Assembly: GCF_949628265.1 (NCBI RefSeq)
Contig: NC_088790.1
Location: 24,990,545-25,054,544, forward strand
DNA length: 64,000 bases
Reading direction: 5' to 3'
Source of the DNA: Cloeon dipterum
Taxonomy: Eukaryota; Arthropoda; Insecta; Ephemeroptera; Baetidae
Program-made: the position numbers and the translations under genes
Shown here: piece after piece, positions 7,949 to 64,000 of the stretch
Layout of the letters: each line of letters starts with the position of its first letter
How positions within the stretch are numbered: position 1 is the stretch's first letter
The notes under the pieces: generated by a model
Told to the model about the DNA's origin: nothing
Database searches by the model: none
What the model saw: the letters and a program-made list of their open reading frames with translations, nothing else

Positions 7949-8391
7949 TTAAAGAGGAATGATACTGCAAAAGCCTGGAAAATGCTTGTTGCCAATGCAT
8001 AAACTCATCCCTTAGGATTCAGTTAAAGCCTAAATTGACCTAAGGAGCGCTGTAAGTTTTTGAGAAAATTGGCTGGAAAGTTACCGTGCTTTTCAAATGG
8101 TAATGGCTGTCTCCTTACTTGAAATCCGATTTAATTTCAAAACCAAGAGTTTCCCCAATAAGTGGCATTCACCGTTGGACAGATCTCGACGAGGGGAATC
8201 GGAATAGGCCAAGAAAATATGTTCGAGCACTGTAAATTTTGGAGAAAATTGGCAAAATTTGAATTTTTATTGTAGGAAGGTCATTTTTTTATTATTGCAA
8301 ATTGTTGAACAAATTGTTAATCGATCAATTGTTTAAGGCATCCAACAATTTAAATAATTTTCAATTGTTGCCCAGTATCATTCCACTTTAA
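7949..8391 (+). mobile_element. Full-length MITE, about 443 bp, TTAA at both ends
   Basis: The left end is AGAGGAATGATACTG and the right end is its near-complement CAGTATCATTCCACT. Each is bordered by TTAA (7949-7952 and 8388-8391). The interior is non-coding and matches the copies at 48045-48491 and 51452-51896 along the whole length. TTAA borders suggest mobilisation by a transposase that targets TTAA (piggyBac-like or Kolobok-like). The tips do not start with the CCC usual for piggyBac, so the superfamily is uncertain. Confidence 0.85.
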
Positions 8392-13291: not shown

Positions 13292-16003
13292 TTATGTATA
13301 CAAACTGGGGTACGTTTTCGGACAGAATTTTCGCGCCAGTTGGACAAACGGCGCAGTCGAATTCTCTTTGAACAAAATGTTATTGGTGTGAGAGCCCCAG
13401 AAGTGGACTCCGTAGCTACTTCTAGAAATTCTATCAGCCCAATTAATGCTGGTCGGGTAGAACAGGTTCAGGTATTTAGCGTATTTGAAAGGACTGAAGC
13501 TGTTCGAGTTGTAGAATCGCACGCCTTGCCATTTTCTGAGTTTGACCGCCTCCTCGACGGACAAATTAAAATACGCGACGACGGCCGAGTTGATGGCCGT
13601 GGGCACCGTCGAGTAGGATTTGGGATCGTACTCGGCACGCACCACCTCGAGCAGGGTCTGCAGCAAAGGGTGGCGCCGCTCGAAGCCCATGACGCAGCTG
13701 TTCAGGTGGTCCGCGTCGTCGGCGGCCAAAAGGTTGGCCTCTCGCAGCACCAGGGACAGATTCCGGACGGTCAGCACGTCCAGGTCCATGTAGACGCCGC
13801 CAAAGTGCCAAAGCAGCGCCAGACGCACCAGGTCGCTCAGGTGCTGCACCGGCGCGACCGAGTGAAGAAACTTCGTCGTCCAAATTTCCTCCAGAACGGT
13901 GTTTTTCAACAGCTTTAATTGAAACGATTTTAATTGATTAATTAATAATTTCCTGACCAAATAAAGAGAATTATTTTTGGTTTAAACTGATTGCTACTAG
14001 GTATTTCTCTTCAGAAAAATATTTATTTTATTAAAATTTTCAGACAGAAAGAGTTGTTGTTTGACAAAAAATTCAATTTAACTGTAAACAGGTTTTTTTA
14101 CAAGGTAATTCAACGTTTTAGTTTTTAGCAAATATAGCAAATATAGCCTTCTCAGATAAATTAAATTTTTGTTTTTGATGGAATGACGATGATTGATTTT
14201 ATTCGGTTTTTGTAAAAAAGTCAAACATAGAGAGGAATGATAGTGGATTTCCCCGCAAAATCCTTTAACACACATACAGATTGGGTCCTAAAAATCATGT
14301 ACAGTTAAAAAAATACATAGACAGCACTGTAAATTTTCGAGAAACTTTTAGCATAGTTTTAAATGGAGAATTTTCAACGGAATTGTGTAATCACGATTTT
14401 TCTGAAATTCCGCATTTCCCCAAAAAAAGACACTGGTTGTCCGATAGATCTCGATGAGAGGATTCCAAATCATGTGAGAAAACACAGTGCAGCACTGTAA
14501 ATTTCGGAGAAAATTTTCTGATGGCAATTAGGGTCCGAGTTTGCCTCTGAAAATCATTAAAATTATTAAAATGAAAGAAATATTTTTTCTGAGATGATTC
14601 TTGAATAAATTAACTTAATTTTGGGTATTTTGATTTTTCCCAAACAAATTTTAAACGTTCTTTAACGGACATCTGAAATTTTCAGACGAATTTTTTTTTC
14701 GAAAATTTTAAATTTGAGATAATTTTGCTGAGTGAGGGAAAACTGGAAATTTAATCAGCTCTCTGAATTTAGGCAGTATTTAACGCTACTATGAATTAGT
14801 GAATTTTAATGAAGCCAAACACAGACCCCTTTTGAAAATCTGCAATTTTTGAAAAAATAAAAAATTTCTTTCAAGACTCAAAAGCACTATTTTTTATCTT
14901 CTCTCAATATTAAATTTTTATAATTTTTCTCACCCCGGAAGCAATTAATTTCATATGCTAAAAAAAGAGGGCGTAACCGGTAAAATTCGAAAAATTGAAT
15001 TTTGTGGCACTTTTGGTCAGATGTACATGGAAAACATAGGTCGGTTAGGGTTATCTTAACATGGAATTTCATTTTTTTAAATAAAAAAATCACTATCATT
15101 CCACTTTAAGAGGTCATGATTTTATTTATAACAAGAAAAATACCGAAGCTTTACCGTTTTGACTTTATATATATTTAAAATTGCCATTTTATATTTTGCC
15201 ATTTATTTTTAAGGTGCTTTTTTTTAACATGATACAGTATTTTTTCGTATTTTATGAAAGTTTAATAATTGCATCATTAATAGTTATCGCCATTAGTAGC
15301 TAGGTCCTTTGTGAGACACGTAGAGAACAGAGTGCAAGAATTTGGAAATTTTCTTTATTAAAATTTTTTATTTTTTAATATTAATTCTGAAATTTTGCGC
15401 AGTAAATAAATTCTCTGATCAAATTTTAATTTTTTTTATTATTTAAGGACAAAAATGGAAGTAATTCAAATTCCAATAAAATCCATCTCTACGCACCTTA
15501 AAATTTAAATACTTTTATTCCTTAAACTCGATTGTAGCTAATAACCGATAAATTTATAGTTTTCATATAAATACATTTGATTTTATCCAGTAAAAATTTA
15601 CCTGCTTGGATTCAACGCAGGCTAGCCGAATATTAGGGTATTCATCGAGGAGGCGAACGAGGGCAGTGTTATTTTCCCGTCGAATTTGGCTCGTTTGCTG
15701 CGTCATGACCAGCAGGACGGTGACGTTCGGGTTGAGACTAGCGGCCGCCTCCAGGGAACACACGTGGCGCTCCAACACTTTGCCCGAGTTGCTCGTCTCG
15801 ACGAAGAAAACGACCTGGCGCCGGCCAAACGTCGCGTCGAACGCGTTCAGGTCGCCCAACATGCGGCCCAAGTCGGTCAGGACGAGGCCCGACTGGTCCT
15901 GGTTGCTCGAGAAGCAGTAGAAGGCGCAGTAGACGCAGCAGAAGAAGAGGACCACGGTGGAAATTCGCAGACACGGTAAAAACGTGTGTCGCAGGAAAAC
16001 CAT
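13292..16003 (-). CDS. Golgi alpha-1,4-glycosyltransferase (alpha-4-galactosyl/GalNAc-transferase family), two exons
   Basis: Type II membrane glycosyltransferase that adds a hexose to glycolipid or glycan acceptors in the Golgi. In insects the family acts as alpha-1,4-N-acetylgalactosaminyltransferase on glycosphingolipids. Exon 1 (15602-16003) starts MVFLRHTFLPC and has one membrane segment at about residues 12-33, then a stem and the start of the fold (RRQVVFFVETSN, NPNVTVLLVM). Exon 2 (13292-13912) has the DXD sugar-binding region: HLSDLVRLALLWHFGGVYMD followed by LDVL, with the metal-binding Asp pair at about 177 and 179. It also carries the C-terminal domain with NSAVVAYF and YGVHFWGSHTNN typical of the alpha-1,4-glycosyltransferase C-terminal region. 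Total is about 340 residues, near the family length. The 1.7-kb intron carries a transposon-like element. Acceptor specificity cannot be read from sequence. Confidence 0.88.
14231..15109 (+). mobile_element. Longer MITE relative inside the glycosyltransferase intron
   Basis: The left end is AGAGGAATGATAGTGG and the right end is CACTATCATTCCACT followed by TTAA (15106-15109). These are nearly the same tips as the 445-bp family but about 880 bp apart. Near 14445-14520 it repeats the family's GATCTCGATGAGAGG and GCACTGTAAATTTCGGAGAAA blocks in diverged form. No transposase frame is seen. TTAA is not evident at the left border, so the element is old or the border has mutated. Confidence 0.6.
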
Positions 16004-16991
16004 TTTCTACTCTTATTTCCAAACCGAACTTTGACGTGTCTTTGTTGCCGCACATTATCAAACAACCTTTTTTTGATAAAGTTTATCACTTGAGTCCTGA
16101 AAATGATATGAATAATGAAGGAAAGGTTGTAAAGATAAAACAAGCTGGCTAAAAGATAAAAATTTTGGAGGAATTTAAAATAAACGATGCCAATTTTTTT
16201 CTTTTGTTGGTAAAATTTAAAATCATAGTTTTTATAATTATTTTTGGTCGGTCAAGAGATATAAAGGGGGAGATCAAGACAGAAGACAAGCTTTACTGGT
16301 GCGCAGTTTTTTGCAATTCGGATGGTTAGACATAGAACCAGAGTTTTGGCGATGAAAATATTTAAAAAATTGGTGTTTTATTGAGTTTCTTGAAACCGGA
16401 AGTGAAAATAAATATGGAACTTTCACAAAAGCTCAAACATTCATTGGGACTACTTTTCAATGGCTTTTTTGATTTTTAAAAAATTGAATAGTTTTAAAAA
16501 AAATCGTATTTAAAAAAAAACAGAGCTAAAATGACCAGGGTTTGCCAATTTTGCAATGCGCAAAAATGCACCACTGGTTTCTTGCGCAAAAAACCGGCTG
16601 AAAAAACCCACCAGTTTTGGGTGTTTTCACATTTTTCCGAATTTTAACCAGAAATAGTCAAATTTTGCTCCAAAAGTGTCTTGAAATTTCAGAAAATTAC
16701 GTTGAGAGTTAAAATTTTGCGTCTCTTGGTGGAACCAGTGGCTCTAATACTGATTTTGGGGATTTTGAAAAATCCCTATTTTTGGTCATCCATGATGAGA
16801 ATTTTTTATTTTCCATAGGAATGCATGTGTATCGGAAAAATGCACAAAATTGCAGAAAAAACCCGCAAAAAACAGTTTTTTGCAATGCAGTGGGTTTGAC
16901 TGATGGTCGGGTTTGAAAAAAGCAGGAATCCAATTCACAAAATTGTCCAAAGTTACATATTTAACTCTCCCCGGTGGAAAAAAGGAGTTGC
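16004..16991. other. Intergenic, AT-rich
   Basis: This is the 5' flank of the glycosyltransferase gene and the 3' flank of the 5S rRNA gene. No gene is recognised. A GC-poor section at 16540-16930 has many GCAAAA/TTTTGC runs giving weak self-complementarity. Confidence 0.35.
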
Positions 16992-17109
16992 GCCTACAAC
17001 AAGCAGTGTTCCCAGGCGGTCACCCATCCAAGTACTGACTGCTCTCAATGTTGCTTAACTTCGGTGATCGGACGAGAACCGGTGTGTTCAACATGATATG
17101 GTCGTAGAC
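16992..17109 (-). rRNA. 5S ribosomal RNA gene, apparently intact
   Basis: Read on the minus strand from 17109, the sequence starts GTCTACGACCATATCATG and ends GAACACTGCTTGTTGTAGGC, 118 bases long. The two ends pair as 5S helix I. The internal Pol III promoter is present: box A GAAGTTAAGC (about +50), then box C with TACTTGGATGGGTGACCGCC. TCTCGTCCGATCACCG is the near-invariant animal 5S segment. About 12 bases beyond the 3' end the minus strand has a run of six T, a Pol III terminator (16980-16985 region). It is a single copy here, not a tandem array. Confidence 0.92.
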
Positions 17110-23900: not shown

Positions 23901-26900
23901 CCTCTGAGGTCACATGAGAACATCAGAACAGGTAAGAAGTCAAACCCTGGTGTCAGGGTAACCCTCAAACAATCGATATTTATTAATTTTGTATATTTGG
24001 CCATTTTACTGACGCCTGACGGGTCCTGTATTGGTTAGATTATTAAGATAAGCACACTGTTAGAGTGACCAAGACTAATAATGTCCAATTTTAACCTTTG
24101 GAAGCCATCAGGGCACTCAGGAAACACCCTGATGTGCTCCAAAGAAATTATTTCTAGGAAATTACACATGAAATGCCATTTTGTAGACAAATATTAAACT
24201 CTTACCTTCGCCTGTTAATAACCGCCATGCCCTCTCCGCTGAAGACATTCCACGAACGCACCTCTCCAGAGAGACAAGTGCTGGCAACCACGGCGCCGTC
24301 GGTGGTTAGACACTCAATTTGCTGCGGATGTCCCTCCAGAACCATGGGCATCGTCTCGAAAACCACCTGCGTGCTTGAGTCTGCGTTCACAGACTCACCG
24401 TTGGTCCAGCTTGAGCGCCATTCTGCATAGTTTCTTGTGCACACGCATCTGATTTAAAGGAAATTAGTGAGAAATAAACGAAAAATTAGCTTGGTTGTTT
24501 TACCTGTACAAAACAATCAAAAAGTAAGCAACGACCAGCACGCTGATGATGCAGAGAATAGCGATGAAAAACAGTTCCATTGGAGATTGAGGAACGTACG
24601 GCACTTCGGAAATTGACGGCTGGGAATCTTTGATAGCATCTGGGTTTCCTTGGGCACCTTTAATTAAAAGGAAGAGCCAAAGTTGTAATTTAATAGGATT
24701 TTTTAGTGTTTAGACCTGTTCACAGACTGTTTATTTAACAAACTAAAATTCATGGTTTCAAAGGATCAGAACAACGTAAGTGGTTGATCTTACTCATGTT
24801 GTAGACAAACTTGAGCGCTTTCGATTGCCAATAATTACAGCGCGAGCCGCTACAGTAATTCAGACACAGAGCCGCTGGCGCGAACTCATTCAACACGAGG
24901 AAACTTAAAAATGTTCTATAAAGAATTTGACATACCATTTAAATCTATGGGATCTAAGGCTGCAACGAGCTTTTGCCACTGGCTGAGGACAGGAAAGTCT
25001 TTCTCGTAGGGGTTTCTAAGTATTTGCGCCTGTTGCGGAGACACGGCTGCGGAGATTGTGATTGGTGGCAGAATGCTGAGATAGTGTCCGGCACTGGAGA
25101 TGTTGTAGATGCGCAGCACAGACTCCCAGTGGTGCGTAGAGAGCATGCGCCATGGCGCGACCCCAGAGTGGACCAACTTCAGATAGTCGTCCAGGTGTTG
25201 GTTTTCGAAAGAGGACACGTTCATCATCATCGTAGGCGCGTTGCTCTGCTGCGCGTTTGACGCTAAAACACAAGTCAAGAATTGAACAAAGTTCATGTTA
25301 GGATTATTTTATTAATTGAAAAACAGCCCAACATAAATAAAATTAACAGAAAAAGGTTTCTTTCTTGCTGGGAATAAAATTAAAATAAAGAAAAATTGTG
25401 ATATAATTCAGAAATAATTGAAACCTAAATTTGAAATATTACAAAAAAGAGCAGCCAGACTGCCAATGTTCTGGTTTCATTTTTTTAATTAAGTAATCTC
25501 CAAAATAAACCAAGCTGCAAGAAAAAAATAAACTTGATCTAGATATGTGTGGCGCATTTTTACGCATTAAAGATTAAATGAAATTTTTAAGCTACCTTCA
25601 GTGCTAGTTTTCAGTTTGGACGTGCTTCCAGATTTAGCGGTGGATTTGTCCGTGCCATTCCGATTAACTTCGGACAACTTTTGCACAAGTTGGGCGTTGT
25701 AAGCGATCATTCCGATCCACACAACCATGCAGATCATGAACGCTCGCTGGAAAATCCGTGTTCTAGTCCAGAAGTGCACGATCCGCAGTCTCTTGGGCAC
25801 GGACGGGCTGTTTCCAGCGGCCAGCGGGTTTTGAGGCGAAAAAGCAACGATGTTGGTGGGATAGAGACCGGCTGAGCTCAATCTCGGGTGCGACTTGGAG
25901 CGCGACAGCCGAGAGCCGGTGGAGAGGTCCATATCGCACGGCTGTCTTTGCAGCGATTTCAAAGCAGGCTCTGCCAGTTCTGAACGCCGGATGTCGATTG
26001 AGAGAACCTGAAATGAGTAACACAAGGGACTGTGAAACTCGGAGGAATTTTCTGAAAGTGGCACAGAAATTCTTATTCAACACGGTAGGATAATATCTAA
26101 AATTATCAGATTTTCTGTCCGTTGGTATCAATTCTAGGATTGAAAACAAAAAACGATATTTTTCTAAATAATTAGGATTTTTTTTATAAAACTTTCCCTT
26201 GAAAAATGGAGACTTGAAGTGGTTTTAAAACGCTTTAATAAAATTTATGAAATAAAAAGGTAATAATTAGAAAAAATTGTAAGAAATGATTATAAACAAA
26301 ATTTAAATGGCTAAATATTCATAATATATTTAATTCGTATACCCACAGGTTTAACATGAAAACAACACTGACGAGAAATTCTCAATAAATCCGCAAAATT
26401 TGATTGGTGCAGAGTTAAAGGAAAAAACAACTAACTGCTACTTGAAATTGCTATTTCAAGTACTAGAAAATTGCTCTAAAATTTTAGAAATTTATGAAAA
26501 AAAAGTACCTATGGCAACTTTAGTCTAACCTTACGTCTAACTCAATCACCTCTTTCAAAATTTAACAGAAGCAGCGCATTTAAGAAATTTTAAAAAATAA
26601 AAAAAGCCAAAACTCACAGCGGTGTAGAAGACCATGTGCAAAAAGAAGTCAGCGACGAGTCCGACAACCGCGAAAATGCAGAACTCTTGGATGGCGGGCA
26701 CAAAAGTGAGCAGTCCAATAGTGAGAATGGTGACTTCTGAAAGGAGATTCTTTATGATGTTCCAGCCTTCCTTGCTCAAACCCTGCGCCACCCTGATCTT
26801 GACGTCGAGATGAGCTTGCGTCGACAAAATAGATTTCGTCTGGATCAAGACGTTCTCCAGTCCGACGGCAACCACGACATAGGGGAAAACTTCTTTGCCG

Positions 26901-28619
26901 TCGAGAGATAGGCGCAGTCCGAAGAAGAAACACAGTCCTACTGCCATTGCCAAGGACGAGGCCACTGTTATCACTGCGCTGAAGGCAATGCCAATCTGCA
27001 ATTAAAAATGATGATGATAAATAATTTTAACAAGAAATACTGGAGATTGATTTAATTATTTTTTTCTGTGATAACAGAGAGCTTAATTTTAAGTAAAAAC
27101 GTGAATTTAGAAACCATCATAATTGTCAGGAACGAGATAATGGGCAAATCAGGCGGTTTCCTGAGCGCCCTGATGGCTTCCAAAGGTTTGAATTGCACAC
27201 ATTCTGAAAGCTCTCGACTAGGCCGTTCCAATGGTGTTTAAATCTTGAAAATCGAACCATTGCATAGCCCGTCAGGTGTTGGTAAAGTGATCACACATTC
27301 ATAATTTTTAATTAAATGATATTGATAACTTGAGTGCAACCCTGGGTCTGATCAGCGCAACAACCTTGAGCTCAAGGCTGCTGCTGACGCTGGGGTTTAA
27401 TATTTATTTGAAAGTACATACCTTTGATTTGACAAAGTCCATTTTCCGCAGTGAAAAGTAGACATACAAGAAGAGAGCTGCGTAAGTAACGAGAAGAGGC
27501 ACAAATTCTTTGTAATTAATTTCTCCCGGATAGTAGATGTGCCAAATTTCCTGGGGACGGTTTGAGGTGAAATTCTGCGAGTGCAAGGGGTAATTTGTCA
27601 CTAGCATCTCCTTCAGGCCTTCGATAAAGCTGCAAAAAAGTTACAATTCAGCCGGATTTCTCTAATGAATTAATTATTACATACTGTGGGTCGTAGTCCT
27701 GAAAGACAATAGTGATGGCGAATTGGAGAAATCTCTGTCGGTTGCGGAATGGATAGCTTTTGATGCCGGTATCCTGCATGTTCATTCCGAACAGCATCTC
27801 AGGTAAGCTGACTTTGCCCTTCTGCAGGCTCTGGTGGGAGAAAATCGTGCCGAGGATGCTGGGGTCGTCTTGGAACGCGGCTCTGTCGTTCTGCCAAAGA
27901 TTGGCGGGCGAAAGCACCAAACAGTTGAATTCAGGAAATTTTATCTTGCCCGAAATCTTCTCCTTCACATCCTCAACGTGAAGACACAAATTTCCAAGCA
28001 TTTGTCCACTGATAAGAGGGTTATTTTCAATTTGTAAGGTAAAGAATGGATTTTATATTACCTGGCGTGGTTTTGAAAGTTTTGTATCAATTCGATGATA
28101 TGAAAAACTCTCTCTAAAGGAGCTCTAAATGCATCAGTCAGGATTAATCCTTTATCCCATGGCACGACAGCAGTTTTTACAACAACCTGTTATAATTTAA
28201 AATTAGAACACAGAGAATTTAAATGTACTCATAAACCAACTTGTTGGATGTGACAAATAGGTGAGTGAGAGAACCATCTTGGAGGCACATCAAAATTACC
28301 CGATTGATTAAGGTGAGTGTTGTTAGAGACAAAAGTCCTGTATTGCTGGGGAACATTGCCTGGCAATGGGATGCTAGTCAGAGGGTAACTGTAAATTTTA
28401 GGAGTTTTAAAATATAATTTCCACATTTCAGAATTGCAACACTTACCAACAAGCAAGAATTATGGCGACTGCAAATATCACAATTGTGTAGGGGTGGCTG
28501 GCGATGATGAGACCATAAGAATAAAAGAGATGAGCAACACGGTCAGGCAAACCAGCAGCCAAACCTCTCTTCGAGGCGGCTGAAGGGGCCGACGAAGATT
28601 CCGAGGCCAAGCCACTCAT
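20958..28619 (-). CDS. SCAP: SREBP cleavage-activating protein (SCAP), 17 coding exons
   Basis: ER membrane protein that binds SREBP through C-terminal WD40 repeats and carries it to the Golgi when sterol (or, in flies, phosphatidylethanolamine) is low. Exons by my reading: 28447-28619, 28241-28388, 28062-28186, 27685-28008, 27422-27629, 26618-26995, 25596-26007, 24936-25262, 24504-24657, 24206-24448, 23154-23449, 22846-23102, 22582-22741, 22346-22524, 21947-22094, 21744-21889, 20958-21206. Phases agree throughout, giving about 1308 residues (human about 1279). The first membrane segment is at about residues 35-57. The sterol-sensing domain runs from about 295 to 455 with [31 protein letters not shown] and [17 protein letters not shown], followed by SIDIRR. 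Another membrane helix, [20 protein letters not shown], precedes the WD40 part ([38 protein letters not shown]). The usual MELADL COPII signal reads SELAEP. The exon 2 donor is CAA|GTTGGT; a neighbouring GT would break the frame. Confidence 0.95.
23985..24150 (-). repeat. Dispersed repeat in a SCAP intron, copy 1
   Basis: Read on the minus strand this has TTTCCTGAGTGCCCTGATGG followed by CTTCCAAAGGTT, then further along ACCCGTCAGGCGTCAGTAAA. The same blocks in the same order occur on the plus strand at 27125-27345. It lies in the intron between exons 24206-24448 and 23154-23449. No coding capacity or clear terminal repeats are seen. Confidence 0.6.
27125..27345 (+). repeat. Dispersed repeat in a SCAP intron, copy 2
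   Basis: The plus strand carries TTTCCTGAGCGCCCTGATGG followed by CTTCCAAAGGTT, then GCCCGTCAGGTGTTGGTAAA. This matches the copy at 23985-24150 in the opposite orientation. It lies in the intron between exons 27422-27629 and 26618-26995. The two copies make an inverted pair about 3 kb apart within one transcription unit. Confidence 0.6.
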
Positions 28620-36297: not shown

Positions 36298-38694
36298 AAA
36301 TATTTTCGCATAAAAGTCAAAATGGAATGTTGGTTTAAAAATGTACAGGTTTTGGGTTGAAAATGTGCTGTCATTCCTTGAGCGGTTTCGCACCGCACCA
36401 CACCGACACCGTGAAAAGTTCCTAACGCCGCAAGGCACAATAGAAGGAAGCTATAGTTACGATTTTGATACACCAAAAGAGCATAATTAGATAATATGAC
36501 GATTCTTAGCCGCGAAACGTGTAATTTACCATTGTCTTCACTCCCCGTATCTGTTGAGTACTTTTCATTTTGTGTTATACTTTAAAATCACATGGTTGCA
36601 GCTCCGCTTCTCGATTTTTTTGTCCCTCCAAATCACGGTGGTGGGATTTTATCATTGTATAAAAAACTGTTTCATATTGTAAAGGATTTCCTCCGAAATA
36701 AAGATGCAAAAAAATACTACAAGTTAAAACTCACAATTGTTAATTAAAACTTCCTTTATATATAATTAAACATTAACATGATCCAAACAAATGTAATAAA
36801 TTATCCCTTTAATTTACAGTTTTGGATGTGTGGAAAAGACGTTAAAAATATGAAATTGTTTTCCTCCAGGTCACCTCTTTGCAGCACAATCTATTTTGAA
36901 CTAAAACTCTTAATATCCCTTCTAATCGTGGTTGAAAAAAGCTACAAGTTTTAGTTTAATGCAAAATACTGCTTTTTTTAAGATTTATAATGATTAAAAA
37001 TTCTAGCAAATTGAGAGCAAAAAAGCATTTTCAATTAAAGCTTCTTTAAGGAGCAGATTTTTTAGCTATACCTGCAAATTTTTAAATTTAGAGGAAAGAA
37101 TTTTTTCCCATTTCCTGAGCTAGAATTTGACAATCAGGGGTGTGAAAAATCGGGTGGTAAAAAAATTCAGCCTTGCTCTGAAGTCAAATTAATTTTTTAG
37201 AGGCAATTTTAAGAAGAGTAATTAGGTTTGCTATGGCATAAAACTCGCATTTCTATTTTTATATCAATCTTAATTTTCCTTAATTTAAAATACATGTAAA
37301 GCGTAAGCGTATTTTAGTTATAATGCAATTTTTTAACCAAAAAATAAAACAAAGTTTCACTTAAAATAGGTCTTTCCTACAAAATTTTAAAAATGATTTT
37401 TATGTGAACACCAATGAAGGAAGGAGCACACTATGTCACTATTTAAACTGGAAAACTAAGACATAATTCTTATAAAAAATCAGCAGAAATATTCCCACTG
37501 TGTACCGTTTAAATTTTTGGGAAAAAAATCAAATCTATGCAATTCAGCAAAACGCCGTATGAATTTCCTTGCGAACGAGGAGATCGTTGAGATTTGACAA
37601 GTTGAAATGGCGCAACTTACGGGAATTTATATAGAAACTGATTAAATTATTGATTTGATAAGAGATGATAATTTAAAAATGCGTCAGAATCCTTAAAACA
37701 ATTTATTACTTATATTTAATCAAACATCATAGCGACACAGACAAAAACAATCGATAACCGGATTAGAACATTCCTAGTGAAAAGCTATGCAACCTGCACG
37801 ACATACGGGAAGTGCAGGCTGCATTTCATGAAAGCCAAAGGCTACAATTTAAAACAATGTCCTTATTAAATTTAGTAAATAGTTATCTTAGTATGGACTC
37901 TGCTAAATATAATCTCATAAAATGTGCTGAAAATAAAGAAAAAAAATTGAACTCGAGAGTCGGTATTTGAACCATAAAGGCACGAATGTGCTGGAGGGAA
38001 AAACACCACGCAACTGCTGATTATCATTATACATTTGATATTGAAAGCAATTATTGTCCGAATAGGACGCCGCGTGTAGTGCTCTTTGAGCCTGTTTTCG
38101 CTAGAAGCGGCGGCGGCGGCAGCAGCGTTTTTGTGAGCCAGCCGTTGGAAATAAAGTGAATATAATGACGCTTGATTATATTACACGCAGGTCTGGCTGG
38201 CTGCTCGAACAAAAAGAGTTTGATATCAGACTGCAGCCATTTTGTTTATGTAATTCCACAAATGACAGGTTTGCTGCGGCGAGCGAGCGAGCGAACGAGC
38301 GCTGGAGGGGCTGAATTATTTCGAATTTCCATTTTTAATTCACCCACCCATACGAGTCTGATGATGGAAACAGCGTGGCAGTAAACACGAGACAAAAAAT
38401 AATGCGGCAAGCAACATGGCCGACCGACCATTCACACCAATTAGTCTGCTCTTGACCATTAAGTGTTTGCATTTCTCATTCCGCCAAAGGCACACACAAT
38501 TTACGGCCATTCCATTTCATATATATATTCCGAGAAGCGCCAAGTAGATTTTTCTTCCTGCAGATCGAATCCTTGATCCTCTCTCTCGTGCAACTGCAAT
38601 ATTAATACACGCGCAAATTGAGCTCCACTTAAACCCACACTCGGTTGCAAATGGAAAATTTCAAGCTTTGAAACTAAATTTGTTTATACAGTAA
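36298..38694. other. Start of the gene desert, 3' flank of shuttle craft
   Basis: Positions 36300-37900 are AT-rich with no gene seen beyond the shuttle craft 3' end. Positions 37930-38660 form an island of balanced composition without a convincing coding frame, a candidate regulatory segment. Confidence 0.4.
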
Positions 38695-40649
38695 GGAAGG
38701 ATCTAAATCAAGTGACACCCCCCTTGGCAAGTGGTCTTCAGATTTTGATGAAATTCGGTGGAGATGTTGCCCTAGGGGACCTAAGTTGAACCCTAAAATA
38801 TTAGGTGAAAATTCCAAAAATTGCCCATTTTACAGGGGTTCAAAATTTGAGATTTTTGAAAAAGGTGATGTTTTCGGCGATTTGGAACTTTGACTCTGTT
38901 TGTGGTAAACACAAAAATTTGGTATCCAAAATAATCTACGTTTAATGCCAAACAATATCCCCACGACGACCAACTTCGTAGGTCAAAGGTCAAGGTCACT
39001 AAATTCGGGTCAAACTTTTCGAAAAAATCCCACATACCCTAGTACATAAAATTTTGAAAATTCAAAATAGCCAAAATGTGCCTCATATCCATGGTAACAA
39101 CATATAAAAAATTGGCGAGACTTATTTTTTTCTTTTTCGAGATATTTTGAATTGAGTGTTAAAAACCGGTGTTTTCCGGGTCTTCTGATCGCAAATAAAA
39201 ACACGTTTTCCGCTTAATCTCAGCTTTTATGGGTCCGATTTAGAAAAACCGCACACCATTCCATACGTAATGACCTCCCCTAGGTAATGCAAGTGATCAT
39301 AAGGGTGCCCTCCCCCTTCGAACCCTTAACCACCCCCTGGAAATCCGAAAAAAATATTTTTTCATATATTTACTATCTAAATCGATTAATTAAGCAAAAT
39401 ACTAATCAAATATGTTCCAAAATAATTAAAATATAAAATATTTCTATTTTCTTTGTAAAAATAACTTTAAAAAAGAAAAATTGCTCATGAAAAATTATTA
39501 ATGTTTATTTTAAATATATAATAATTTTGAGTTTCTTTGTTAATTCAAAATAACTGAATTTTTTATTTTTTTAATGAATTTTCGAATATATTTTCTATTT
39601 TACAGTATTTTTTATAAATATAAAGGTATGCAACCATTAGCAACAATGTTTTAAACACACAATTTTTACCCAATACCAATGGTCAATGGTTAAACAATTA
39701 TTAATAGTTGCATTTATTTATAATAATAAAATAAACACTGTAGAATAGAAAATATATTTAATAATTCATTATAAAAATATAAAATTCAGTCATTTTGAAT
39801 AAACAAAGAAACGCAAAATTATTAATATATTTAAAAAAAACTTAAATAATTTTTTATGAGCAATTTTACTTTTTTAAAGTTATTTCTACAAAGAAAATAG
39901 AAATATTTTATATTTTAATTATTTTGGAACATATTTGGTTAGTATTTTGCTTAATTAATCGATTTAGATAGTAAATATATGAAAAAATATTTTTTTCGGA
40001 TTTCCAGGGGGTGGTTAAGGGTTCGAAGGGGGTGGGCACCCTTATCATCACTTGCATTACCTAGGGGAGGTCATTACGTATGGAATGGTGTGCGGTTTTT
40101 CTAAATCGGACCCATAAAAGCTGAGATTAAGCGGAAAACGTGTTTTTATTTGCGATCAGAAGACCCGGAAAACACCGGTTTTTAACACTCAATTCAAAAT
40201 ATCTCGAAAAAGAAAAAAATAAGTCTCGCCAATTTTTTATATGTTGTTACCATGGATATGAGGCACATTTTGGCTATTTTGAATTTTCAAAATTTTATGT
40301 ACTAGGGTATGTGGGATTTTTTCGAAAAGTTTGACCCGAATTTAGTGACCTTGACCTTTGACCTACGAAGTTGGTCGTCGTGGGGATATTGTTTGGCATT
40401 AAACGTAGATTATTTTGGATACCAAATTTTTGTGTTTACCACAAACAGAGTCAAAGTTCCAAATCGCCGAAAACATCACCTTTTTCAAAAATCTCAAATT
40501 TTGAACCCCTGTAAAATGGGCAATTTTTGGAATTTTCACCTAATATTTTAGGGTTCAACTTAGGTCCCCTAGGGCAACATCTCCACCGAATTTCATCAAA
40601 ATCTGAAGACCACTTGCCAAGGGGGGTGTCACTTGATTTAGATCCTTCC
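38695..40649. mobile_element. 1.95-kb near-perfect palindrome (foldback-type element) with GTAA borders
   Basis: The left arm starts GGAAGGATCTAAATCAAGTG and the right arm is its reverse complement, ending at 40649. The centre is at about 39672 with essentially no spacer. Comparing the arms by eye, I find no mismatch over about the outer 600 bp. Scattered changes appear from about 39296 inward and many in the innermost 100 bp. GTAA directly precedes the left tip (38691-38694) and directly follows the right tip (40650-40653), consistent with a 4-bp target-site duplication. The same short open frames appear on both arms only because the arms are copies. No transposase is present. The superfamily is unknown to me. 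Confidence 0.85.
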
Positions 40650-43600
40650 GTAAAGATTTTACAACTTTAAATAATAAAATAGAATTGGATGATTTTGAAA
40701 GCTGAAAAAGAGTTTGGACACATCCTTGAACAAATGGTATGTTTCTCGGAACTATATTGATAATTTTTCGAAGGGAGTTTCGTCCCTAAACGTCTAATGA
40801 TCGTCTTTCACTAGGGGACAGTTTTTTCTGCGAAATTAACAGCAATTAAATTATTGCTTCACATAAATTTTTGTTTAGTTTAATTGCTTTTTAGCGTAGT
40901 TCTACACGGGGAAATGCACCTGTCAATTAATAAATTCTGGTGTTTTCGCTGCCAAACGATAGTGTGTAATAAAAGATGTCAATTCGACAAAGGAGTATTA
41001 GCCCTTATTTAGGGTTCGCCAGTTTCCCGCCTCCATAATTCAAAACATTTCAAACTGTTGTAATATCTTAGAAACTGGACGGATTTCAATAATCTACTTA
41101 TTTTTTAATCTATCTGCTTATGAGAAAAATCGTTTTGTGTGCGGTTTTCTTACTTTTGGAAAGAAGGATTTAAAAAAATTAGTTGTCCTGGGAAAATTGC
41201 ATTCAGATTAGGGGCTTGTTTCATAAAATAAAGCTTTATTTCGGTTATTTAATTTTTTATGTCTCGCAAATTCAAGTAAATTTTTAAAACGGCTTTTGCA
41301 GAGAGTTGGAGAGAGAATTTCCTCATGGTTAAAAACTGCAAATTTCCTCAGATTCCCGAATTTGCTAAGAGTATTGCTCCACCACTGCTAGCCGCTGAAT
41401 TATAATACCAAACTTGTACTGCTTATGTTATTCGTCCATATTTTTCATCTAATTTTAAACTCTGTTGGACGGAAGAAAGAAAAGGTTAATTTTTGGCTCT
41501 TTCCGTTGGTAGAAACAAAAATTAACTTTCCCCAGCATAAAAATTATTTGTTTACGCTAAATCCAGATGAGCAATCTTTTTTGGCAAGGATGAAACTTAT
41601 TTAATATTTTTTGGAAATTAGCTGTATATTTGAAACAAAAAGGCTGCCTCTTTAAAAATACCACACGCAGCTCAATGGCTTGTTTTACCGTTGCTTTTAA
41701 TTACCTTTAATGTCTTTATTAAGCTTATTAAAAAACACTTATAATCTGCATCGGCATGCATTCGTGTAATGATGAATATAATTAGAATATATCTAACTAT
41801 AATTTGACACGATTTGATGAGTGCGAAACTCTCGTTTCTCACGCCTGAAGGGACGTATTCAAATTTGCACCGTCTCTAATTCACACAGGTGCCGCGTCTG
41901 TTATTAGATGCATTCTGAAATAATTAGAATAATGCCGCTCCTCTAATCAATATTTATGTTTCGCATTGTTCGTTTTAAAAATTTGTTCACAAAAACCTGC
42001 CTGTGTCAAAAGTTTTCGGCGATAGAAAATGCGATGGGTTAATGAATGATATTTTGGCTCCATCGTAAACAAAATAATTCGAAATCCTTAAAAAAGAAGA
42101 AAACTCTTAATCGTAATGATTATGAAAAAAAATGTTATAAAAATTTATCAAATTGGGCTCATTTGTCTTAGTCAACTTGTACATCTGAAGTGTCGCCTTA
42201 TGATTCTGGGCTATGATACATTAATGTAATAATAATGACTAATTGTGAGAACTATAAACATCAATTTAGATTCTGCGCTTTTGATGAAAGGATTTTTAAA
42301 TCAAAAGAATTTTCTTTTAGAAGCAACATAGATGGCAAATATTTACGAATAAAAATATTCAGATTGCATTAAGCCCATATTTTTGTTCATTTTATTCAAT
42401 TTTGTTTCCCAAGAATGGATCAAATTTCATTTTTAAAAATTGATATTATATTTTTTTTATTAAAATACTAACTAAATCAACAAAAGGTGGACAATTTAGA
42501 TTAAAATCGTGATTTTCCTCTCAACCTGTGAATAAATTCGCTTAGAAACATTAATTAAAATAATAAATAAGATTTGTTGTTATTAAAAGTTTGTTAAAAA
42601 TGATTAAACTTTGGGCAAAAATAAAAAAACAAACAGAAGATGAGTAAATTTAGATTTGGTTTTTGTTTATCAAAATCTATTTTTGAGAAATAAATTCCTT
42701 TTGTCACACAGAAACATTAAATATGTAGTTTTCCAACTTCTGCAGTAGCCTACAATTATGTGAAACTCTCTAAACAAAATACAGGAAGACCAAAAAATTG
42801 ACATGCTGCTACAGGGCAGAAAAGACATTTTACCTAATGAAATTAACGGTCCTTTATTCATACATATTTCATTAAAGAAAGCAGCTGACCGCAAAAGCGA
42901 AATGACAAGTTAGCAAACAAACCGCAACAACTGTCTCACTGTCATGAAAGAAATGCCCCGTGTGTGTGTGTGGTGTGTGTCGCACGAGCTGACCGTAAGT
43001 ATACATTTCTATAAAACGTGATTGCCTATCAAATAACAATAATCAAGAGGCGCACAACAAAGGGAAGGTTTCCTGTGCGTTTTCTAAAGAAAAACTGAAA
43101 GAATGAGACTCGCGGCAGCTGTCGCGAGCTCTACAATCAGCGGTCCTTTGTTGACTTTTGTCTGCTTATTTACAAAATGATACACTCCTGAATAATTTAC
43201 AGCTGCACGAAAGAAAGAGAGAAATATTAACAAACTGTCCATTATCAACACAATACGAGCGAGAAATTGGAGCAGCTTTTGTGACAGTAGTTTTCGGATT
43301 AAAGAGTTCTTTCGAAAGCCTATGGGAAAATGTTTTCAGCTTCATAAATATTCAGAGTTGTAAGAAGTATTGGAATACCTCTAGAGCAGTAAATTTAAAT
43401 TTCACGACTCTCTTGTATAATCCGGAAATGAAGTGAAACGCTTTTGTGAGCCCGCAAACCCATAATCTTGTATTCACTCTGTCATTTTCGGACATTTGAT
43501 TTTGTATCAGGCAACGCGCAGAGTGCTTCTGATTGGCCGCAATCGCTGATCAATTACTACCGTCGACGTGGAAACCTAAAACGGTCTTCTCGCTAAAGAG

Positions 43601-46299: not shown

Positions 46300-46700
46300 T
46301 CACCAAAACGAGAACATATCTTAATTTCTGGCTAATTTAACTCAACCATGACCTCAAAAAGTAAAAATAAATATTTTAATTTAAATACGGGTCAAAATCT
46401 AAACAAAATTCTCCATTTTCAAGGCGCAAAAAACCTCGGTTTTTCAATTTTGACTTCGATTTTCTCAAAAAATAAGTAAAGAGTGCACAATACACATTTT
46501 TAATACGTTGTTACGACGTAATTTTGGCTTTTCTACTTAGACATTTTATAGGATATGCCAGAAATGGACCTGATTTTTGACCCACGAAGTTTGTCACCAG
46601 GACGAACTTGCTTGGCGTCAAATTTAGAACATTTTCGACACCAATTTTTTGACTCTAAAATCGGACAAATGTTTGAACAAGTTTAATATTTGAAAATATA
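46300..46700 (+). repeat. Diverged relative of the palindromic element's arm
   Basis: It has the same order of blocks as the right arm of the palindrome at 40170-40470: a CGGTTTTTCAA segment, a TTTCTCAAAAAATAAGT segment, ACGTTGTTACGACGTAATTT, TTTTGGCTTTTC, then GACCTGATTTTTGACCCACG with AAGTTTG, and TTGGCGTCAAATTTAGA. Identity is low but the order is kept. Only one arm is recognisable. Confidence 0.4.
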
Positions 46701-46983
46701 AGTTCTAGGAAAGCTATTTTCAAGAACATGTATGTATTTTTTGATCGTAAAAAACAATACAAGTTCACTTTTCATTTTTATTTTACTCCCGTGACCTAAA
46801 TTTCGTTGCGATAGTGTCGCTGATTCTAAATAAGCAGTTGTACCTTTTTGTCAGGGGATCCGGCCGTAAAAATAACAATAATTACGTGCGCACAAACCCT
46901 CTCTTAGGGCCGGGTCGCAAACTCGTAATTACATGCATTTGACCCGTGACTGCAGAGGCTGGCTCCGTGCGCCTCAATGAACG

Positions 46984-48044: not shown

Positions 48045-48491
48045 TTAAAGAGGAATGATACTGGAAAAGCCTGGAAAATGCTTGTTGCCAATGCATAAAC
48101 TCATCATCCCTTAGGATTCAGTTGAAGCCAAAATTGACCTAAGGAGCACTGTAATTTTTTGAGAAAATTGGTTGGAAAGTTACCGTGCTTTTCAAATGGT
48201 AATATGGCTGTCTCCTTTACTTGAAATCCGATTTAATTTCAAAACCAAGAGTTTCCCCAATAAGTGGCATACACAATTGGACAGATCTCGACGAGAGGAA
48301 TCGGAATATGCCAAGAAAATGTGTTCAAGCACTGTAAATTTTGGAGAAAAATGGCAAAATTTGAAGTTTTATTGTAGGAACGTCTTTTTTATTATTGCAA
48401 ATTGTTGAACAAATTGTTTATCGGTCAATTGTTTAAGGCATCCAACAATTTAAATGATTTTCAATTGTTGCCCATTATCATTCCACTTTAA
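48045..48491 (+). mobile_element. Full-length MITE, about 447 bp, TTAA at both ends
   Basis: Same family and orientation as 7949-8391. TTAA is at 48045-48048 and 48488-48491, tip AGAGGAATGATACTG. It is alignable along its full length with only scattered substitutions and small indels, so the copies are fairly young. Non-coding. Confidence 0.85.
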
Positions 48492-51451: not shown

Positions 51452-51896
51452 TTAAAGAGGAATGATTCTGCAAAAGCCTGGAAAATGCTTGTTGCCAATG
51501 CATAACCTCGCCCCCTTAGGATTAAGTTAAAGCCTTAATTGACCTAAGAAGCGCTGTAATTTTTTGAGTAAATTGGCTGGAAAGTTACCATGCTTTTCAA
51601 ATGGTAAATGGCTGTCTCCTTACTTGAAATCCTATTTAATTTCAAAACCAAGAGTTTCCCCAATAAGTGACATACACCGTTGGACAGATCTGGACGAGAG
51701 GAATCGGAATATGCCAAGAAAATATGTTCAAGCACTGTAAATTTTGGAGAAAATTGGCAAAATTTGAATTTTTATTGTAGGAAGGTCCTTTTTTAATTAT
51801 TGCAAATTGTTGAACAAATTTTTAACCGATCAATTGTTTATGGCATCCAACAATTCAAATAATTTTCAATTGTTGCCCAGTATCATTCCACTTTAA
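51452..51896 (+). mobile_element. Full-length MITE, about 445 bp, TTAA at both ends
   Basis: Third full copy of the family, same orientation as the other two. TTAA is at 51452-51455 and 51893-51896. The left tip reads AGAGGAATGATTCTG, one change from the others. It lies 3 kb from the copy at 48045. Non-coding. Confidence 0.85.
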
Positions 51897-54074: not shown

Positions 54075-54321
54075 ATTTACACCATAATTCACACACCGTT
54101 GGATAAATCGTATATAACGAAAAAGAAGGAATTGGAATCAAGCGAAAATTAAAACCATTTAGATTATCGAGAAATTTTGGAAATTATAAAATTTAACGAT
54201 TACTTTGGTCCTAATTGGATTGTTGCTTATTTTTAATCTAAGATAGATTGAGATTAATTCAAACTAATAATTTGTTCTACTGTTAATTGTAAAGACAACA
54301 ATTTAAATTAATTTCAATTCG
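54075..54321 (+). mobile_element. Old, diverged MITE right half, cut by another element
   Basis: The blocks CACACCGTTGGATAAATC, GGAATTGGAATCAAGCGAAA and CAACAATTTAAATTAATTTC correspond in order to the right half of the 445-bp family (ACACCGTTGGACAGATC, GAGGAATCGGAAT, CAACAATTTAAATAATTTTC). Similarity stops at about 54321 where the CTGGT-type element begins, so the terminal CAGTATC segment is lost. Confidence 0.45.
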
Positions 54322-54420
54322 TCCTGGTCCTGGTAAAATTGCGCAACGTTCAACAAACACCCAAGTTTTCATTGTCGAATTGATTGTTGATCTTTTCTTG
54401 CAACTATAGGAAATTCACGC
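54322..54420 (-). mobile_element. Truncated short inverted-repeat element (CTGGT family)
   Basis: It reads CGTCCTGGTCCTGGTAAAAT followed by TGCGCAACGTTCAACAAACA, then CTTTTCTTGCAACTATAGG. This matches the reverse complement of 62864-62998 over its first 100 bases. It ends abruptly at AAATTCACGC where a MITE fragment begins, so its far terminus is missing. Confidence 0.55.
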
Positions 54421-54522
54421 GCTCCTTTTAGGTCAATTTAGGCTTTAACTGAATCCTAAGGGATGAGTTCATGCATTGGCAACAAGCATTTTCCAGGCTT
54501 TTCCAGTATCATTCCTCTTTAA
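54418..54522 (-). mobile_element. Left-end fragment of the TTAA MITE, reverse orientation
   Basis: In reverse it carries the tip AGAGGAATGATACTGG bordered by TTAA (54519-54522), then AAAAGCCTGGAAAATGCTTG and the GGATTCAGTTAAAGCC and GACCTAA blocks of the family's left end. It covers only about 100 bases and is joined at 54418-54424 to the CTGGT-type fragment. Confidence 0.8.
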
Positions 54523-62863: not shown

Positions 62864-62998
62864 CTGGTAGCGGTAAAATTGCGCATTTCTCAACCACGAA
62901 TAAACGCGAATTTCCTTGTTGCAAGAAAAGGGCAATAATCAATTTTTCAGTGAAAATTTGGGTAGTAGTTGAGCGTTGTGCTATTATACCGCTACCAG
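62864..62998 (+). mobile_element. Short inverted-repeat element, about 135 bp (CTGGTAGCGGTA ends)
   Basis: The left end is CTGGTAGCGGTAAAATTGCG and the right end is the complement of CTGGTAGCGGTATAATAGCA. A second, truncated copy in the opposite orientation lies at 54322-54420. AATT flanks both sides, but the duplication is not clear-cut. Non-coding. Confidence 0.65.
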
Positions 62999-64000
62999 AA
63001 TTAAATTAATAGTCTTTTGGAGTTGGAAAAGAGTTAGAATTTTCTCAGTTTGCCGTTAAAATTGCCGAGAAACTCGTCGGCTTCAAAACTATAATGAAGT
63101 GAGGAAGTGTAAATCAGGATTTTGGAAATTTAGCTCCTATTTCCCACACCATTGAATAGATTTTGCGTCGAGAGGAATCGAAATCAATTGAATTAAACCA
63201 TTTGATCTTTCGGGAAACATGCCCAATATCTGAAATTTAACTTTCCTAAGTCCTGATTTGATTATTGCCCACATTAATTTTTGCCTGATCTTCCAAACAA
63301 TTGACTCGATAAACCAAGTAGTTGTTGCTATTAGCCAACCAATGCGAAATATTCTTTGTTGAATATAGTATAGGCTCTACATCTTAAATGGTAAGAAAAA
63401 GGTTGGAACCCTATTAAATAGCTAAGCGAGGAATTTAAATCAGTTTTTTGCTGTTGAAAACTGGAACTTTTGGATAAAATAGTCTCGTTCTCAGAAATAT
63501 TGCGGGTTTATTTTTGTATTGAATTATCGTGCTAAGAAATAATTGAATTGGCATCGATTCAAAACCATAAGTTCTGTATACTAAAGAACCGAATCAGTTT
63601 CAAATCATGAGAAACCGAAAGAGTTCCGGGTTGGGAACCAAATTTAACGGTACAAAATTTCACTGTCGAATATAAAAATCCTTTTTTACGCTCGTATTTT
63701 TTAACTCTAGTAGAACTGAACCTCTATAATCATGATTTTATTTTCCAGATATATAAATTTAAATTTTAAAAAAATGAATATTAAACTGAAATTAGCCTGA
63801 AAAATCGATTAAAGGCGTAATTTTTCAAGAAAATCGCTGCAATAATCATATCAATATGAATTTATAAAATCTACGTCTTTAATTGATTTTTAAATCTTGT
63901 GTGAAAACCAATGCATGTATATATCTATAAACCTTTTTATCAAACTTTCAAATAAATTCATCAAAATAAATCAGTTAACTCATTTAACACAACAAAAAAT
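62999..64000. other. AT-rich flank with an old MITE relative at about 63150-63300
   Basis: CACACCATTGAATAGATTTT followed by CGTCGAGAGGAATCGAAATC resembles the right-half blocks of the 445-bp family in diverged form, followed by a TTGCCCAC-type remnant. No gene is recognised up to the window edge. Confidence 0.35.

Follow-up and report, generated by a model that had tools for sequence, protein, structure and literature searches.

How can a long palindrome have two tips that mirror each other perfectly and a centre at which its two halves have drifted apart, and what kind of element would it be? This question is raised by a sequence in a 64,000-nucleotide stretch of DNA from Cloeon dipterum (contig NC_088790.1), the whole of which is referred to here as the window. 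The palindrome at window positions 38695-40649 is real and 1955 bp long, with the left tip at 38695, the right tip at 40649 and the midpoint at 39672. A first-pass annotation of this DNA had claimed a 1.95-kb palindrome here, and its tips, length, midpoint and flanking GTAA all proved to be exact. The element starts with GGAAGGATCTAA and ends with TTAGATCCTTCC, and its tips are of the GGAAGGATC type. The outer left arm (38695-39297, forward strand) is the exact reverse complement of the outer right arm (40047-40649, reverse strand) over 603 bp, so that the earlier figure of about 600 matching outer bases on each side also stands. The inner left arm (39298-39672, forward strand) and the inner right arm (39673-40046, reverse strand) are AT-rich, and each is more diverged from its partner nearer the centre.

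The two arms of about 975 bp make up most of the element, which gives it a Foldback-like architecture of long terminal inverted repeats. That they meet with no real spacer, as was first proposed, is almost correct. The innermost 77 bp of each arm are still homologous (alignment score 24, compared with a maximum of -6 in 500 shuffles), whereas the last 37 and 22 bp before the centre align only weakly above shuffles (p 0.02 and 0.01). An unrelated spacer is absent, except perhaps for the last 20-40 bp on each side, where p is 0.01-0.02. A tandem repeat search of the element returned only short rows of 15-19 bp. Judged from the list of open reading frames, no stop-to-stop frame that touches the element is longer than 81 amino acid residues.

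The sequence GTAA is found directly outside both tips (38691-38694 on the left and 40650-40653 on the right), and direct identity between the flanks at this place extends over 4 bp, as in a target-site duplication. Two random 4-mers from this window match with a probability of 0.0069; taken alone, the pair is suggestive. A 2-bp TA duplication in place of the 4-bp GTAA is less parsimonious; in that case the surrounding G and A would match by chance with a probability of about 0.08, as calculated by hand from the base composition. Immediately beyond the tips mirror identity is low, with 3 of the first 8 and 5 of the first 12 bases matching. Over longer spans it amounts to 12 of 20, 20 of 40 (38655-38694 compared with 40650-40689) and 40 of 100 bases. 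Random pairs of windows reach 12 of 20 with p 0.003, the length of 20 having been picked after the fact. The boundary of the element may be less clean than it looks, given this slightly raised mirror identity. A palindromic target motif extending past the duplication could be the source of the similarity, and motifs of this kind have been described for other transposons in the accessible text of one report (PMC4168063).

One diverged, one-armed relative of the palindrome is present elsewhere in the 64-kb window, at 46421-46865 on the reverse strand. In a BLAST comparison of the element with the rest of the window, arm bases 218-303 match 46567-46651 (reverse strand) with 73% identity over 86 bp and an E value of 3.9e-7. 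A local alignment with stricter scoring extends the match to arm bases 119-490 and 46421-46744 with a score of 356, while in 300 dinucleotide shuffles each the whole arm reached at most 313 and the outer 640 bp at most 242; the shuffled region was picked after the BLAST match was known. Of 268 tile-and-strand comparisons, the two highest scores belong to overlapping tiles over the relative, the next score being 241. With looser scoring the alignment is not significant (581, below the highest score among 200 mononucleotide shuffles, 588). Between the tip of the relative and its aligned part lie 118 bp that score no better than shuffles (p 0.56), and a second end was not found in the window, which leaves one recognisable arm.

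The tip motif of the relative, GGCCGGATC, is located at 46865, with GTAA directly outside it (46866-46869); GTAA occurs in the window at a frequency of 0.0038 per position. The pattern GG..GGATC occurs four times in the window on both strands: once at each palindrome tip, once at 46865 and once, at 2883, within the frame of ribosomal protein L24. The motif at 46865 lies within a few bases of the extrapolated tip of the relative, and it is counted as a tip because of its position, the motif itself and the adjoining GTAA. The segment 46421-46865 is taken to be a probable old and decayed member of the same family. The view that the palindrome was inserted as a unit, with a 4-bp duplication, gains support from GTAA at both tips and from this relative, with the same GG..GGATC end beside GTAA. 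Outside the window, exact motif scans gave no match for any of four patterns in viral contigs or for either of two in genome contigs, and the left arm had no match in phages or plasmids in distant mode. The collections scanned comprise viruses, bacteria, archaea and plasmids, and these misses say little about an animal element.

The element is very probably a transposon. This reading is supported by the symmetry, the GTAA-flanked tips, the lack of a long open frame and the diverged relative in the window. Defined tips together with a 4-bp direct duplication are the marks of a cut-and-paste DNA transposon. The palindrome is best read as a non-autonomous transposon of this type that consists almost only of two terminal inverted repeats of about 975 bp placed head to head. 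In kind it is ordinary, a defective transposon with long terminal inverted repeats (TIRs); the one-sided gradient of identity is its unusual part. The whole reading, namely a non-autonomous Foldback-like transposon with a GTAA duplication and a gradient produced by conversion anchored at the tips, is somewhat favoured overall.

The element can be compared with known transposons described in published reports. The closest in form is Galileo, a member of the P superfamily in Drosophila, whose two-TIR copies are described as non-autonomous, 1.7-2.2 kb in length and made mainly of long inverted repeats (PMC3573991). For two Galileo copies, the TIRs of the same copy are reported to share more than 99% identity and those of different copies to differ by about 7%; in two other, chimeric copies the TIRs of one copy differ by about 6% (PMC2775673). 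However, Galileo has a 7-bp duplication with the consensus GTANTAC (PMC4168063), compared with 4 bp in the palindrome, and the copies described in one report have a middle segment of about 350 bp (PMC2775673), unlike the head-to-head arms found here. A one-sided gradient of identity is not described for Galileo in the text available from these reports (PMC3573991, PMC2775673). The palindrome would thus appear to be another long-inverted-repeat element of the kind known from Galileo, with a gradient for which we found no description in the literature consulted.

The Foldback-like elements Tetris and Tm1 resemble the palindrome in having long inverted repeats and non-coding copies, but they are described with duplications of 8-10 bp and internal tandem repeats in the arms (PMC3169594, PMC4079207), where the palindrome has 4 bp and only the short rows mentioned above. 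In Tm1, the paired TIRs of an element are reported to average 93% identity (PMC3169594). The 4-bp duplication is shared with Sola1/Sola2 transposons and is described for Sola2-type elements (PMC3627910). In the amoeba Sola2 elements of that report the duplications are AT-only, of the form AWWT (ATAT, AAAT, ATTT), while GTAA is A or T at three of its four positions, contains a G and does not fit AWWT; the TIRs of these amoeba elements are 12-21 bp long, compared with arms of about 975 bp (PMC3627910). An unclassified palindromic repeat of Calliphora vicina, Unknown 6, is similar in form, being palindromic over 465 of 488 bp at 92%, and is four times shorter than the palindrome (PMC3630058). Among the forms given in the accessible text on ATon elements (PMC3422177) and iMITEdb (PMC5199201), no match to the palindrome was found. 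The superfamily cannot be named because no transposase is present to compare. Transposons with a TTAA target, a rule followed by piggyBac, Kolobok and Sola3, were considered and rejected, as both ends carry GTAA and not TTAA.

The gradient was assessed by aligning the left arm with the reverse-complemented right arm from tip to centre, over 977 bases. The first 603 bases are identical, and 44 differing alignment columns follow up to base 977: 34 substitutions and 10 gap columns, or 39 events in 977 sites when each gap run is counted once. Per 100 bp from the tip the differing columns number 0, 0, 0, 0, 0, 0, 2, 4 and 12, with 26 more in the last 77 bp, so that the accumulation of changes towards the centre noticed in the first-pass annotation is borne out. 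At the rate of bases 604-900, zero differences in 603 sites would have a chance of 4e-16. By the Akaike information criterion (AIC), an exponential gradient with an e-fold distance of 95 bp fits best (221), ahead of a two-step model searched on a 5-bp grid (232), a one-step model (239) and a uniform rate (330). The outer 650 bp have a GC content of 0.39, against 0.17 in the inner part. The trend nevertheless persists inside bases 640-900 (16 events in 261 sites, permutation p 0.00055), and the idea that the gradient is a mere by-product of the AT-rich inner part is rejected on this ground.

The perfection of the palindrome had initially been ascribed either to a very recent origin or to gene conversion. 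Recent origin alone fails because the divergence of the outer and inner arms differs far beyond what a uniform rate allows; homogenisation, or else mutation biased towards the centre, is therefore needed. Stepwise inward growth of the repeats can be set aside, since it predicts that the inner part is the youngest and most alike, and the opposite is seen. In one Galileo copy, according to the text available, internal sequence was duplicated and inverted and the TIR thereby became longer (PMC3573991). In the partly accessible literature that was searched, no description of a tip-to-centre gradient of identity, or of this element, was found, which is not proof of absence.

Conversion between the arms anchored at the tips is the explanation of the gradient that we favour, at about even chances, yet mutation focused on the centre fits the present data equally well. 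A transposase encoded elsewhere would recognise the tips and move the element. Repair would then begin at the tips, where the transposase cuts, and the outer part of one arm would be copied onto the other. The inner parts of the arms would escape copying, keep their old divergence and drift. If the tracts start from a tip and mostly end 600-900 bp inside, the tips should be identical and the divergence should rise towards the centre. In-place repair of extruded cruciforms should, by the same reasoning, begin at the centre, so that the arms would agree best there, which is the reverse of what is seen.

These possibilities were compared in conversion simulations of 20 runs per model, for which means are given and in which the parameters were chosen by hand and not fitted. 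With tip-started tracts of 750 +/- 120 bp, about 1 difference per 100 bp remained across the outer 800 bp, followed by 4.0 and 12.7. Tip-started tracts of exponential length gave a broader rise that begins at the tip. Conversion with random starts produced a flat profile near 4 and no conversion a flat profile near 55; conversion starting anywhere is thus unlike the observed gradient and was rejected. No simulated model has a mean as low as the 0 differences observed over 600 bp. Compared with the simulated value of about 1 per 100 bp, this would therefore mean that the last event was more recent, or that events are more frequent, than in the simulations. The inner arms have diverged from each other on the order of the 27% (over 86 bp) that separates the element from the old relative, as expected for an old lineage in which only the tips have been refreshed.

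The main alternative, which we regard as possible though somewhat doubtful, keeps the same transposon and places the gradient after its insertion. The centre would extrude as a hairpin or cruciform and be cut, and error-prone repair would pile up mutations there, while the young outer arms stay identical. Measured from the centre outwards, the exponential rise is equally well described as a decay, and long palindromes are reported to break at cruciforms (PMC3855049). However, this explanation requires a central rate at least some 60-fold higher (26 of 77 columns, against an upper limit of 0.005 for the outer arm). In addition, the differences are mainly ordinary substitutions (34, against 10 gap columns) and not large central deletions. 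One copy cannot separate centre-focused mutation from tip-anchored conversion; several could.

That the palindrome is a hairpin-RNA locus is improbable. Transcription across it would give a long double-stranded RNA for siRNA production, and this might be the reason why it is kept. One strand is predicted to fold to -1527 kcal/mol with 1840 of its 1955 bases in stem register, and a Dicer-2/siRNA role of such a predicted hairpin transcript is structurally possible. But any palindrome would fold in this way, and both the GTAA and the gradient would be left without explanation. An assembly or library fold-back artefact is very unlikely, although long inverted repeats are a common artefact in general, because the identity stops at the GTAA-flanked tips; the left and right flanks also differ, the arms are distinguished by their 39 differences, and the diverged relative shares the tip motif. 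Equally remote is a local inverted duplication without a transposon, for which the single full copy and the mirror identity over 20 bases outside the tips could be cited, against the direct GTAA on both sides, the dispersed relative with the same end and the fall in mirror identity directly outside the tips to 3 of 8.

The tip-anchored reading carries some general consequences. Foldback-like long inverted repeats can be nearly uniform within a copy, and to our knowledge it is unclear where their homogenisation starts. A tip-to-centre gradient would distinguish repair of in-place cruciforms, which starts at the centre, from repair of transposase cuts, which starts at the tips. Should the same gradient recur in several host copies, with inner differences in common, the mechanism could be tested directly; otherwise the palindrome is an ordinary defective transposon. 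We suggest tentatively, as an idea that may well fail, that the transposon renews its ends, mobilisation copying several hundred outer bases from one arm to the other, starting at the cut tips, that a single copy records the lengths of repair tracts, and that a triple half-site in each arm could tie transcription to host receptors.

This half-site cluster is AGGTCAAAGGTCAAGGTCA, located at 38980-38998 on the forward strand of the left arm and, as its mirror image, at 40346-40364 on the reverse strand of the right arm. It contains three AGGTCA half-sites in 19 bp and, besides the mirror image, is the only such triple in the window, where AGGTCA occurs 43 times when both strands are counted, including 8 times inside the element. 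The relative retains the stretch in part, as GGGTCA and AGGTC. Half-sites of the AGGTCA type bind nuclear receptors. The string AGGTCAAAGGTCA reportedly appears in a study of the sequences bound by HNF4 within Alu repeats (PMC3252374). Any role of these putative receptor-type half-sites in the arms is speculation.

The surroundings of the element contain several other features. A Pfam scan of 10 frames in the window gave matches for three of them, a mitochondrial-type ribosomal protein L24, an alpha-1,4-glycosyltransferase and a sterol-sensing domain, and no match for the remaining seven. By eye, some frames without a Pfam match look like cuticle-type, NFX1-like and Sp-like proteins, and the genes in the window appear to be animal-type. 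A single 5S rRNA gene or pseudogene is located at 16991-17109 on the reverse strand (108.6 bits, Rfam); its sequence does not appear Drosophila-like. A diverged inverted repeat pair at 23977-24137 and 27144-27314 shows 70% identity over 171 bp, and its second copy lies close to the sterol-sensing domain frame (26555-27001).

A second repeat family, of about 445 bp, has near-complete copies at 7949-8391, 48045-48491 and 51452-51896, which are 91.6-94.4% identical among the three. Partial copies are found at 1-207 and at 54419-54522 (reverse strand), and a further right end near 15094-15109. The ends of this family, like AGAGGAATGATACTG and CAGTATCATTCCACT, stand beside TTAA, and the end patterns that include TTAA occur in the window as four left and five right ends. 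We take this family to be a TTAA-target MITE, presumably piggyBac- or Kolobok-like by its target. Finally, two related stretches of about 110 bp, at 54307-54419 and 62905-63010, are 76% identical in opposite orientation, and the first of them abuts the partial TTAA MITE at 54419.
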